Assembly: GCA_949296355.1 (NCBI GenBank)
Contig: CASFPS010000016.1
Span: forward strand, 1-56,039
Reading direction: 5' to 3'
DNA: 56,039 nt
Source of the DNA: an uncultured bacterium
Lineage (GTDB): Bacteria; Cyanobacteriota; Vampirovibrionia; Gastranaerophilales; Gastranaerophilaceae
The notes below the pieces were generated by a model that was not told the DNA's origin, ran no database searches, and worked only from the letters and a program-made list of their open reading frames with translations. Below are positions 20,996-43,197 of this stretch, piece by piece. Made by a program: the position numbers and the translations under genes. How positions within the stretch are numbered: position 1 is the stretch's first letter; each line of letters begins with the position of its first letter.

Positions 20996-21139
20996 TGCGG
21001 AGCAAAAAATTCATCCGTCTACAACTAAAGTTACAGGCAATTCACTCAAGAATTCTTTTTACCGGTGTCTTAAGTAACCGATTTTACCGGAGTTTTACGC
21101 CTCTTCTACACCATTTGTATGATTCTCAAACTAAAGTTG

Positions 21140-21166
21140 TAAAGTTCTGAAATTTCATGCCGATAA
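21140..21166 (+). promoter_or_regulatory. sigma-28 (FliA) promoter of flagellin
   Basis: TAAAGTTC (21140-21147), 11 bases, GCCGATAA (21159-21166): it matches the enteric sigma-28 consensus TAAAGTTT-N11-GCCGATAA at 15 of 16 positions. It lies 39 bases before the flagellin ATG. Confidence 0.85.
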
Positions 21167-21205
21167 CCAGAGAAGAAAGGCAAAGAAAATTGAAAGGAAT
21201 TTATT

Positions 21206-22324
21206 ATGGCGACATCAACAATCACAATTAACACAAACTTGGCGTCATTAACCTGCCAATCATACCTTAGAGGTGCAACAGCAGGTATGAATACAGCAAT
21301 GGAGAGATTATCAACCGGCTTCCGTATCAACTCCGCAGCTGATGACGCAGCAGGATACGCTGTATCCGCAGGAATGGAAGCTAAAATTAACGGTTATGAC
21401 ATCATTGAAACCAACGCTCAAATGGGGTTAGATATGTTAACCACAATGGAAGGCGTTCTCGGTATCATTAATGATTATTTACAAAGAATCAGAGACTTGA
21501 CCATGCAGGCAGCAAACGGTACTTACGGCTCTGCTTCTTTAGACGCTATCAACCTTGAAGTTCAGCAAAGAATGGATGAAATCGGTCGTCTTTGTGAAAT
21601 CACAGACTTTAACGATACCTATCTTTTAGACGGTTCAAGACAGGATGATATCAACCTGCAGGTAGGTTTGTATTCAGACAAAAGATGCGTTATCAAGATG
21701 GATCAATTCCTCTTTGACAGCGCAAAAGCAACTGTTATTTTCGGATTTAAAGCTAATAATGATAATATAACAGAACAAAGACCGGGCTATATTGATTTAA
21801 CCTATTCAGCTGATGAAAATCAATATGAATACAGAGCAAGAGTTCTTGATGAAAACGGAAAACCGGTACTCGACGGTAACGGAGATTATACATACCTTCC
21901 GGGTTCTTACCAGTCTGCATTAACCGCTGCTATGGCAGAAAACGGAACAGTTGTAGAAGGTGTAATTGAAGTATCAAAGCCAGGTACAGGCGGAGCAAAG
22001 ACAGTTTCAATTACAAATATGTGTAATGCAATCTACAGAAACGACAGTTCTGCACGTGAATTCATCACATTCATTGACGAGGCTATCGATAACGTATCTT
22101 TAAGATCTACAAAAATCGGTGCTTATATGAACAGATTGAATGCTGCAATTGATTCAACCGATGTTCAAAGAGAAAACTTGATTGAGGCTAACTCTACAAT
22201 CAAAGACGCTGACGTTGCAACAGAATCTTCAAATTATATCAAATACCAGATTCTGCAGCAGTCTACAGCAACACTGTTAGCAACAGCTAACCAGATGCCG
22301 TCTATTGCTTTGAACTTAATCTAA
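21206..22324 (+). CDS. fliC: flagellin
   Basis: The 372-residue protein has the conserved flagellin ends. The N-terminal D0/D1 domain covers about 1-145 (SLTCQSYLRGATAGMNTAMERLSTGFRINSAADDAAGYAVS, then LTTMEGVLGIINDYLQRIRDLTMQAANG). The C-terminal D1/D0 domain covers about 280-372 (STKIGAYMNRLNAAI, ANSTIKDADVATESSNYIK, and the end ATANQMPSIALNLI). The variable middle is short. AAAGGAA precedes the ATG, and a near-perfect sigma-28 promoter lies upstream. Flagellins are exported unfolded through the flagellar type III apparatus, so the cell should encode that apparatus elsewhere; no other classical flagellar gene is in this window. Confidence 0.95.
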   Translation: MATSTITINTNLASLTCQSYLRGATAGMNTAMERLSTGFRINSAADDAAGYAVSAGMEAKINGYDIIETNAQMGLDMLTTMEGVLGIINDYLQRIRDLTMQAANGTYGSASLDAINLEVQQRMDEIGRLCEITDFNDTYLLDGSRQDDINLQVGLYSDKRCVIKMDQFLFDSAKATVIFGFKANNDNITEQRPGYIDLTYSADENQYEYRARVLDENGKPVLDGNGDYTYLPGSYQSALTAAMAENGTVVEGVIEVSKPGTGGAKTVSITNMCNAIYRNDSSAREFITFIDEAIDNVSLRSTKIGAYMNRLNAAIDSTDVQRENLIEANSTIKDADVATESSNYIKYQILQQSTATLLATANQMPSIALNLI

Positions 22325-24373: not shown

Positions 24374-25162
24374 ATGGCAGAGAATGAAGAATTGCAAGAG
24401 GCAGGTACAGAAGGAGAAGCGCGTCAGAAGATTTTAGTTGCTGACGATGAAGCAAGTATCAGAAGAATTCTGGAAACCCGTCTTAAGATGGTCGGATACG
24501 ACGTAGTTACGGCAGAAGATGGTGAAGAAGCCGTAGAAGTCTTTAATAAGACTAATCCTGATTTGGTAGTATTAGACGTTATGATGCCAAAGATGGACGG
24601 CTATGGCGTAACAAGAGAAATCCGCAGAACATCTGATGTTCCTATAATTATACTTACAGCTCTGGGTGATGTTTCTGAAAGAATTACAGGACTTGAGCTC
24701 GGTGCTGATGATTATGTAATCAAACCTTTCAGCCCGAAAGAACTTGAAGCACGCGTAAAAGCAGTATTAAGAAGAACAATTAGTAAAGATGTTATTATAC
24801 CGGCTTCTTCATCTGCTGCAGGCGCTTCTGCCGGAGGCAAAAATAATAAGAATATTATTACAACCGGTGCTATAAAGATTGATACAGCAAGACGTCAGGT
24901 TTACAGAAAAGGCGAACGCATTCGTCTGACAGGTATGGAATTCAGCCTGCTGGAACTTCTTGTAAACAATTCAGGTCAGGCATATTCAAGAAATGAAATA
25001 CTGCAGCATGTATGGTCATATCCTGCAGATCATAGAATTGATACCAGAGTTGTTGATGTTCATATTTCAAGACTTCGTTCAAAATTGGAAGCAGATCCGA
25101 CGAATCCGGAATTGATATTAACCGCAAGAGGTATCGGATATATGTTCCAGAGAATAAATTAA
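24374..25162 (+). CDS. rpaB: OmpR-family response regulator, RpaB/Ycf27 type
   Basis: The 262-residue protein has a 17-residue acidic N-terminal extension. A receiver domain follows with ILVADDEASIRRILETRLK, the phospho-accepting Asp in LVVLDVMMPKMDGYG, and GLELGADDYVIKPFSPKELEARV. A Gly/Ser/Asn linker leads to a winged-helix effector domain (GMEFSLLELLVNNSGQAYSR, VVDVHISRLRSKLE, ARGIGYMF). The receiver is strikingly like cyanobacterial RpaB, an essential regulator that binds HLR1 sites in response to redox and light stress. No kinase gene adjoins it. Exact HLR1-type direct repeats occur in promoters elsewhere in this window. AGGTGG precedes the ATG. Confidence 0.92.
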   Translation: MAENEELQEAGTEGEARQKILVADDEASIRRILETRLKMVGYDVVTAEDGEEAVEVFNKTNPDLVVLDVMMPKMDGYGVTREIRRTSDVPIIILTALGDVSERITGLELGADDYVIKPFSPKELEARVKAVLRRTISKDVIIPASSSAAGASAGGKNNKNIITTGAIKIDTARRQVYRKGERIRLTGMEFSLLELLVNNSGQAYSRNEILQHVWSYPADHRIDTRVVDVHISRLRSKLEADPTNPELILTARGIGYMFQRIN

Positions 25163-37640: not shown

Positions 37641-37731
37641 AATATACTCTCCTTGTACAAGTGCTTAAAGCCTAAAACCCTTGTCCGGTCTGCTTATCTC
37701 CTATTATACAACAAACAAAAAAGCAGAGAAT

Positions 37732-37746
37732 TGTAAATTTTTGTAA
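37732..37746 (+). promoter_or_regulatory. exact HLR1-type direct repeat (putative RpaB site)
   Basis: TGTAA-N5-TGTAA, on the minus strand GTTACAAAAATTTACAA. It fits the cyanobacterial HLR1 consensus (G/T)TTACA(A/T)(A/T)NN(G/T)TTACA(A/T)(A/T) in full. It lies upstream of a plus-strand small-RNA candidate and of dapB (minus). Confidence 0.55.
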
Positions 37747-37784
37747 CAAATATATACTGAATATGTTATAAATATATAAAATGT

Positions 37785-37875
37785 GGAATTATATAAGTAT
37801 AATCTCTTTTCTTTATTTTCTCCTCCACTCCTTTATCTAACGAGAGTTAATGCCGCAACAGATTGCGGCTTTTTG
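37785..37875 (+). ncRNA. small-RNA candidate with a CU-rich middle
   Basis: A plus-strand terminator, GCCGCAA-CAGA-TTGCGGC then TTTTT (37852-37874), has no gene before it: secA and dapB run on the other strand. Upstream, an A/T-rich core (ATGTTATAAATATATAA, 37763-37779) and the HLR1-type repeat form a possible promoter. The RNA would hold a TTATATAAGTATAA hairpin and CTCCTCCACTCC (37820-37831), which can pair with ribosome binding sites. The 5' end is a guess. Confidence 0.45.
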
Positions 37876-40659: not shown

Positions 40660-41500
40660 AATGTTCGTTTCACCCCCTTGAAAAAACACGTTCAACTCTT
40701 CAATCGGGGAAGGAATGCGCTTGCGTTGTCAAATCAACGTGTCTCCCTCGCCCCATTGGGGAGAGCGGATTTGCGGATACGGGTGAGGGGCTGAAAAATA
40801 TAAGTGTTTGAATGATTGCTGTTGGTTGCGAATTATTATTAGTTAATGGCAGGTAAAACCTGACTTACGCTTCTTGTGGAGCAAAATCCACACTACTATT
40901 TTCGTTCAATGAGCGCTGTCGCGGCTCTCTCCCTGAATGAGGAAGAGATGGAGAGGGTGATAATCATACAAAAAATCAGCACCCTTCCTAACCTTCCCTC
41001 ATATAGGGAAGGAATGCGCGCTGTCGTTCAATTAATCTCTTCTGTTTGTTAAAATTTACGTCATTGCGAGGGAATATCCATTCAGTCAGAAGCAATCCGG
41101 AACGAATTCTACGATTAAAAACAGGTTGTGTGAAACCCAACAATAACAATATGGATTGCCGCGTCGCTTCCGCTCCCCGCAATGACATCAAATTAGCGCG
41201 TACCCCTCGCCCCATTGGGGAGAGGGTAGAATTTGTTAGCGAGCTGTGCGAGCTTAGAAATTCGGGAGAGGGGCTGAAAAACTATCATTCCATACAACAC
41301 CCCTCTACCCCCTTCGGGTACTTCCCCCGCAAGGGGGGGCAGACGCGGCGACGCTCAATTAGCGTATATTCATTACTTTTTTAAATTCTCGTCATTGCGA
41401 GGGAACAGCCGTTTAGCCCGAAGCAATCCAGAACGAATTTCACAATTAAAAATAGTAGGTTGTGTGAAACCCAACAATAACAATATGGATTGCCGCGTTG
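40660..41500. repeat. 1 kb field of dispersed repeats
   Basis: Between secA and the sRNA candidate lie 'ccctcgccccattggggagag' blocks (40745, 41208), a reversed copy of the GAATTTCT...AGAAATTC repeat (41202-41276), a 'gtggagcaaaatccacac' hairpin (40876-40894), two 'gtcattgcgagggaa' elements (41063, 41392) each followed by GTTGTGTGAAACCCAAC (41125-41141, 41460-41476) and 'aacaataacaatatggattgccgcg'. Open frames here read through repeats and lack ribosome sites. I see no real gene. Confidence 0.65.
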
Positions 41501-41510
41501 CTCCCGCTCC

Positions 41511-41730
41511 TCGCAATGACGCCAAACTGGTAGGCTTACCTACTAACCCAAACATTTACCCTCGCAATGACGCCAAACTGGTAGGCTTACCTACTAACCC
41601 AAACATTCCTACTAACCCAAACATTTACCCTCGCAATGACGCCAAACTGGTAGGCTTACCTACTAACCCAAACATTTACCCTCGCAATGACACCCAGCCG
41701 GTAGTTTTACCTGCCAACCTAACCTTACAC
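41511..41730 (+). repeat. 51-bp tandem repeat array
   Basis: The unit TCGCAATGACGCCAAACTGG...AACCCAAACATTTACCC starts at 41511, 41562, 41631 and 41682 (the last copy diverged). The second unit contains an extra 18-base duplication of CTACTAACCCAAACATT. The unit begins with the 'cgcaatgac' part of a dispersed element, so the array probably grew by slippage at that element's edge. Confidence 0.85.
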
Positions 41731-41814: not shown

Positions 41815-41834
41815 CTTACATATATATAAAGTAT
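41815..41834 (-). promoter_or_regulatory. ATACTTTATA-type core promoter (minus strand)
   Basis: Minus strand ATACTTTATATATATGTAAG. It matches the cores upstream of 49992 (49925-49944) and 55846 (55803-55822) at 18 of 20 positions or more. Each has an HLR1-like repeat 35-37 bases upstream. Confidence 0.55.
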
Positions 41835-41870
41835 ATAAAACTTTCCTAATTTCACAACTTGTTAAAATCG

Positions 41871-41885
41871 TTACAAAACTTTACA
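41871..41885. promoter_or_regulatory. exact HLR1-type direct repeat, site A
   Basis: TTACA-N5-TTACA, within GTTACAAAACTTTACATA, a full HLR1 consensus match. It is 36 bases upstream of the minus-strand core promoter at 41815-41834. Confidence 0.55.
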
Positions 41886-41899
41886 TAGCTTCGCATTTT

Positions 41900-41914
41900 T
41901 GTAAACTTTTGTAA
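41900..41914. promoter_or_regulatory. exact HLR1-type direct repeat, site B
   Basis: TGTAA-N5-TGTAA, reading TTTACAAAAGTTTACAAA on the minus strand, again a full match. It lies just upstream of the sigma-28-like promoter of the 42001 gene, so the two sites could serve the divergent transcripts. Confidence 0.55.
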
Positions 41915-41931
41915 AAATTTTTGAAATTTAT

Positions 41932-41959
41932 TAAAGTTTTCGAATAAAAATGCCGTAAT
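41932..41959 (+). promoter_or_regulatory. sigma-28-like promoter of the 42001 gene
   Basis: TAAAGTTT (41932-41939), 12 bases, GCCGTAAT (41952-41959). The -35 is exact; the -10 differs from GCCGATAA at three places and the spacer is one base long, within the range allowed for sigma-D/FliA. Confidence 0.45.
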
Positions 41960-42000: not shown

Positions 42001-43197
42001 ATGGGAATGGCAGCGTCACAAGCTAGATTATTAACGCTTACAGGCAGGCTTCATGATGTTGAGTATAAAGCTCAAAACATCGAGAGTCAGAAAATTGCGC
42101 TTGCAACCCAGAAAGATAAGCTGTACGAAAATTATATAGAAGCCTTGGATGCTAAAAAGATTCAAGTTGCATTTAACAACGGGGATGGAACCAAAAATTA
42201 TGTTGATGCGACTTTTGCTACTTTGTGTACTTATAACGAGAACAGATGTGCACAATATTCATTAACAGACAATAAGACCGGTAAGGTTATTGTGGATTCA
42301 CATACAGCAGAGGTTTATGAAAGTTACAATACCGACAAATATGCTTTTGCTTATGCAATGCTCGGTATGGACGGAGACTTTGGCTGGTATGATGAGGGCG
42401 GATATGGTACCGATAGAATGAATATGGGTATGGAAATAGGTATCGGGGTTTGTACTGAAGATTATGGCGATGGTCAGGCAGAGAACGGGAAATCCAATTT
42501 GTTTATGACAGATGTGGAGCGTACTGTATTTGATAATCACTATGATGAAAATGATAAATTAAAGAAAGCTTATGATAATCTGACAGAAACTTGTAATTCA
42601 GACAGTGCTTCCATGTCGGATCAACGCAATGCTTTAAATGAATTTAGAGATGTTCTGTATCAGGAATACGGTTCGGAAATTTATAAATACATGCGCTTAA
42701 ATAAGAATGAAGCATCAAATACAGACCCTGACTCTTCAACTGCAGAATTTAATAATGAGTATCCGGAGGAATATCCTCAAGCTGAGTTTGAGTATTATGT
42801 AAATTTGTTTGAAAAGATTCAGTCTGCCGGAGGCTGCCAGGAAATTGATCCTCAATATGAATCAGGAGATGAGGGCAATGAATGGCTTAACAATATGGTA
42901 ACAACCGGACGGGTTTCTATTGATATTTATAATAACAATAAAAATGAATGGCAGGAAACAAGTGTGGCTACAAGTACCAATCAAAATTTCCTGCAGGAAG
43001 TTGAGGATGAAACCGATCAAAAGAAAGCAGAAGCAGAGTATGAACACGAACTTGATATCATTAATACTAAAGACAGCAAGTTTGATCAGGATTTGAGTAA
43101 ACTGGAAACTGAAAGAACTTCTATTACAACAGAGATGGAGTCAATCCAAAAAGTAAGAGATGACAACATTGAAAGAACTTTCGGTATATTCAGTTAA
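42001..43197 (+). CDS. coiled-coil protein of unknown function, possibly flagellum-associated
   Basis: The 398-residue protein opens MGMAASQARLLTLTGRLHDVEYKAQNIESQKIALATQKDKLYENYIEALDAKK, an alpha-helical start that recalls the N-termini of flagellar rod, hook and filament proteins (ASQARLLTLTGR, then a long helix). The middle (about 60-270) is acidic and polar. The last 70 residues form another coiled coil (KKAEAEYEHELDIINTKDSKFDQDLSKLETERTSITTEMESIQKVRDDNIERTF). Helical ends around a variable centre are the plan of axial flagellar proteins. With a sigma-28-like promoter upstream this suggests, but does not prove, a flagellar role. AAAGGA is 14 bases from the ATG, a weak ribosome site. Confidence 0.6.
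   Translation: MGMAASQARLLTLTGRLHDVEYKAQNIESQKIALATQKDKLYENYIEALDAKKIQVAFNNGDGTKNYVDATFATLCTYNENRCAQYSLTDNKTGKVIVDSHTAEVYESYNTDKYAFAYAMLGMDGDFGWYDEGGYGTDRMNMGMEIGIGVCTEDYGDGQAENGKSNLFMTDVERTVFDNHYDENDKLKKAYDNLTETCNSDSASMSDQRNALNEFRDVLYQEYGSEIYKYMRLNKNEASNTDPDSSTAEFNNEYPEEYPQAEFEYYVNLFEKIQSAGGCQEIDPQYESGDEGNEWLNNMVTTGRVSIDIYNNNKNEWQETSVATSTNQNFLQEVEDETDQKKAEAEYEHELDIINTKDSKFDQDLSKLETERTSITTEMESIQKVRDDNIERTFGIFS

Follow-up and report, generated by a model that had tools for sequence, protein, structure and literature searches.

The window, a 56,039-nucleotide stretch of a genome of the Gastranaerophilales type, a non-photosynthetic sister lineage of Cyanobacteria, contained a divergent promoter region between a minus-strand small RNA (41819-41733) and a plus-strand gene (42001-43197) for a leaderless acidic protein of 398 aa. 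Two intergenic sites in this region matched the 18-bp HLR1 consensus KTTACAWW-N2-KTTACAWW (KTTACAWWNNKTTACAWW). Site 1 (41870-41887, plus strand; GTTACAAAACTTTACATA) and site 2 (41898-41915, minus strand; TTTACAAAAGTTTACAAA) had 0 mismatches each and opposite orientations, as in the original prediction, whose coordinates were those of the 15-bp cores. Each site served its own promoter. Measured from start to start, site 1 preceded the CTTTATA of the minus-strand small-RNA promoter by 54 bp, and site 2 preceded the TAAAG of the 42001 gene's sigma-28 promoter by 32 bp. Repeats, some interspersed and some in tandem, were present between secA and the small RNA (41050-41720), in the form of CGTCATTGCGAGG palindromes and TACCTACTAACCCAAACATT units.

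The core pattern TTACA-N5-TTACA occurred three times in the window, always in intergenic DNA, with 0.24 expected, which agrees with the well under one originally anticipated; 0/100 dinucleotide shuffles reached 3. The excess extended to the whole genome, with 77 exact occurrences against 18 of the reversed pattern used as control. Spacings N3 to N7 pooled gave 151 occurrences, and only N5 was enriched (77), so that the other four spacings averaged 18.5, the background level. The repeat period was 10 bp, as in HLR1; a WalR-like period of 11 bp (N6 spacing) was rejected, as it was not enriched in the genome and remained within the background average. The HLR1 excess was present in 34/34 genomes of the genus examined, and was less pronounced in the majority of other genera and families.

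The sigma-28 (FliA) promoter of the 42001 gene (TAAAGTTTTCGAATAAAAATGCCGTAA; 41932-41958, plus strand) was a perfect match, TAAAGTTT-N12-GCCGTAA at 41932, and the sigma-28-like promoter first proposed is thus real. In the orientation of the 42001 gene, site 2 was TGTAAACTTTTGTAAA, with TAAAGTTTTCGAATAAAAATGCCGTAA 32 bp from the start of the site. In 30 promoters of this gene within the genus (that of the window included), HLR1 was in register in 30/30 (20 exact, 2 with 9/10, 7 with 8/10 and 1 with 7/10 bases). The proximal TGTAA was kept in all 30 and the distal half had often decayed to TATTAAG. The sites were retained in relatives, so that the loss which would have refuted the original prediction was not seen. 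The distance from HLR1 to the sigma-28 promoter was 32-33 bp in most of these promoters and 43-44 bp in eight, which is one helical turn more and the same face of the helix.

The same composite recurred across the genome, where a sigma-28 promoter followed 24/77 HLR1 sites, at a distance of 32-33 bp (44 bp in one case). Strict sigma-28 promoters (TAAA(GTTT), N11-12 and a GCCGATAA-type -10) numbered 29 in the genome and 2 in the control. An exact HLR1 was in register in 22 of the 29, with about 0.002 expected by chance from the site density (estimate), and four further listings, two of which were one locus at two contig ends, had 8-9/10 bases in register; almost every member of the strict set has a putative RpaB site. 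The flagellin gene of the window (21206-22324) was an exception to nearly all other strict sigma-28 promoters, with a sigma-28 promoter (region 21139-21205) that had no HLR1. When the gap was left free from 8 to 38 in relatives, 84/86 parsed composite matches had a gap of 17, 18, 28 or 29 (control patterns, 0). A wider survey of 292 genomes required only the proximal half-site (control total, 2), and found the composite in every sampled genome of the genus (6-33 each). Most of the family's other genera had it in small numbers, and a neighbouring family had it once; none was found in the remaining sampled genomes, five of them within the class and the rest being all those from outside it.

The minus-strand small RNA was borne out as a conserved element of 87 nt with an intrinsic terminator and an inferred 5' end. 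Its C-rich, single-stranded core (AUCCCUAAAUCCCUUCCUAACUAAUUUUCC) was nearly invariant. One copy was present in 59/65 congeners and none was seen outside the genus; Rfam families gave no match even at E ≤ 1. The putative promoter (41822-41857, minus strand) consisted of TTGTGAAATT (-35-like) and TATACTTTATATATA (-10-like), and site 1, in its own sense, lay 54 bp before CTTTATATATA, with TGAAATT at about +31. HLR1 was 54 or 55 bp before the small-RNA -10 in 28/28 loci with a readable core (15 perfect, 5 with 9/10 and 8 with 8/10 bases), compared with about 0.6% of random positions at ≥8/10. The position of the small RNA varied among relatives (divergent to the gene, in tandem, or at another place), and the HLR1 register was kept even where the small RNA did not adjoin the gene. 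The pair was back to back in 6/30 orthologous regions only, because the small RNA moves among relatives, and HLR1 moves with it; the pair is therefore best described as two independent promoters. The back-to-back arrangement in one divergent region thus stood for the adjoining exact sites of the window, but not as one double site. Pairing of the small RNA with the leaders of sigma-28 targets was tried and was not significant (p = 0.16).

The remaining 53 HLR1 sites were without a sigma-28 promoter. A TTTATA-type -10 was in register in 13 of them (1-2 off register), and the combination of GTTAT at +33 and GTGGAAT at +51/52 in 4 (0 off register), the latter including the third site of the window and a flagellin gene. 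The -35-like element started at about +33 in all core promoter types, as would be expected if RpaB touches a part of the polymerase that is unchanged across sigma factors. No recognised core promoter was in register at 27/53 sites, part of which are background (about 18 expected by chance). HLR1 spanned about -69 to -50 from the predicted starts, an estimate in approximate agreement with the range of -66 to -45 from which RpaB activates in photosynthetic cyanobacteria (PMC13421787). The third exact HLR1 of the window (37730-37747, minus strand; 0 mismatches) was intergenic between dapB and secA, and in sense orientation was followed by a class C promoter that reads the plus strand, with GTTAT at +33 and GTGGAAT at +51. 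This GTTAT/GTGGAATTA core promoter (37730-37790) had no evident gene on the plus strand, opposite the 3' end of secA; an unannotated plus-strand transcript is possible.

The presumed regulator, rpaB, was itself in the window (24374-25162, plus strand). Its product scored 355.2 bits with NF045944 (NCBIfam equivalog cut-off 330), and 221 with the YycF model (cut-off 340). Homologs of RpaB were present in 283/292 genomes of the phylum. In a comparison with nine presumably photosynthetic homologs that came from other families of the phylum, 61-62/81 residues of the DNA-binding domain were identical, and the recognition-helix segment DTRVVDVHISRLR(S/A)KLE had only one S/A difference. With the ortholog in the window, the 10-bp period and the retained recognition helix, the reading of the sites as HLR1 bound by RpaB is supported as far as sequence goes. 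FliA was also encoded in the genome (232 bits; cut-off 189.6). Retention of RpaA, RpaB and NblS by Melainabacteria without photosynthesis was noted in 2013, with the remark that they "may have another function" (PMC3787301). In a literature search, those papers on RpaB and Melainabacteria that were consulted mentioned gene presence only, with no report of RpaB sites or targets there, and no paper was found that joined Gastranaerophilales with a sigma factor.

An exact HLR1 was also located upstream of fliA (C8:92505-92519; L072:3006-3020), between a TATATAT -10-like sequence and the fliA start, which is a repressor-like position. Not all sites therefore need be activating. RpaB may control fliA itself, and this site hints at a more complex circuit.

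The 42001 protein belonged to no Pfam or NCBIfam family, and its orthologs were mostly from Candidatus Gastranaerophilales or Melainabacteria. In the structure model (pLDDT 86.5), long helices at the N and C termini flanked a globular central part. Flagellar axial proteins have this layout and may be related. The match with the flagellin core (Z 8.7 over 107 residues) was within the score range of unrelated coiled coils, the VIA-align rows contained flagellin cores together with unrelated coiled coils, with similar Z values, and Foldseek gave no match with E ≤ 0.001. A set of 21 sigma-28 targets was mostly acidic and without a hydrophobic N-terminal segment, and a Pfam/NCBIfam scan of 20 sigma-28 targets gave mostly no family, with weak EF-hand, LysM and RHS-repeat matches. 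Large leaderless acidic proteins, mostly without a Pfam family, were under the composite promoter at L047, L048, L050, L056, L063, L087, L094, L108 and L110. They may form a secreted set; export of the targets through the flagellar apparatus is a guess.

Taken together, both sites are probably RpaB sites, each the activator site of its own divergent promoter, and RpaB would be a sigma-independent global co-activator in the genus. A dimer of RpaB would occupy each direct repeat, with the repeat centred near -60 from the predicted start and its downstream half-site some 16-18 bp upstream of the -35 element. The bound protein would then contact RNA polymerase, probably at the C-terminal domain of the alpha subunit, placed on the A/T-rich spacer. 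In the plus direction RpaB would assist transcription of the 42001 gene by FliA polymerase, and in the minus direction that of the small RNA by another holoenzyme. Since dozens of promoters, with core promoters of at least three kinds, shared this geometry, RpaB would not be tied to one sigma factor, and would activate RNA polymerase from a constant position with any of them.

Activation is favoured by the helical phase of the predicted sites and by their location upstream. The opposite effect, with the sites acting as RpaB repressor or insulator elements that shut both promoters when RpaB is phosphorylated, is unlikely; cyanobacterial RpaB does repress from sites overlapping -38 to +23 (PMC13421787), and the HLR1 upstream of fliA is in such a position, but both sites of the window and the class A, B and C sites genome-wide were fully upstream of the -35 element and helically phased, as is typical of an activator and not needed by a repressor. 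Slightly less probable still is binding by another regulator of the OmpR family, to which a direct repeat of period 10 is common. The genome encoded three further OmpR-type regulators, of which the two examined scored 213 and 199 bits with the RpaB model (cut-off 330) and had different recognition helices, whereas RpaB keeps the cyanobacterial recognition helix and HLR1 is the known RpaB site.

The genome is A/T-rich and the intergenic region upstream had interspersed repeats, so that chance A/T-rich repeats or a mobile repeat carrying TTACA pairs could be thought of as the source of the sites. Such an origin is highly improbable given the shuffle and reversed-pattern controls, the single enriched spacing, the fixed register between unrelated flanks, and the conservation of half-site bases across congeners. 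Activation by RpaB from each site thus remains the preferred reading.

The predicted system resembles the RpaB/HLR1 regulon of PCC 6803 and PCC 7942 in its orthologous regulator, 18-bp motif, 10-bp period and estimated activating distance, and in the presence of a small RNA (PsrR1 in those strains) in the target set. It differs in that no photosynthesis targets were seen; the putative targets were sigma-28 genes for leaderless proteins of no known family, and a different small RNA. A single fixed register to the core promoter was shared here by several promoter types, and the half-site favoured TGTAAC, the distal half being degenerate. PsrR1 of Synechocystis is likewise a small RNA under RpaB control, which is predicted here, but the present small RNA had no Rfam match and was found in this genus only. 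WalR (YycF) of Firmicutes, of the same OmpR subfamily, also binds a direct repeat; its consensus has TGTAA half-sites with an 11-bp period, whereas only the 10-bp period was enriched here. The flagellar regulons of sigma-28 (FliA/SigD) share FliA and the core promoter TAAAGTTT-N11/12-GCCGATAA. In most descriptions sigma-28 promoters require no activator, whereas here nearly all strict sigma-28 promoters had a response-regulator site in register, the flagellin of the window being without one.

The presence of HLR1 at a fixed distance before dozens of promoters suggests what RpaB does in a lineage without light use, and indicates that the HLR1 code is in use where light plays no part. The fixed register delimits a regulon in a concrete and testable way, and offers a clear example of a single response regulator that would serve several promoter types from one position. 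More tentatively, and with less likelihood than the reverse, RpaB in Gastranaerophilaceae could be an obligatory gate on a sigma-28 regulon turned from motility to large leaderless proteins exported via the flagellar type III apparatus, with the small RNA in the same circuit. If so, the cyanobacterial "high-light" regulator would have descended from, or been recruited into, a light-independent surface and secretion programme.
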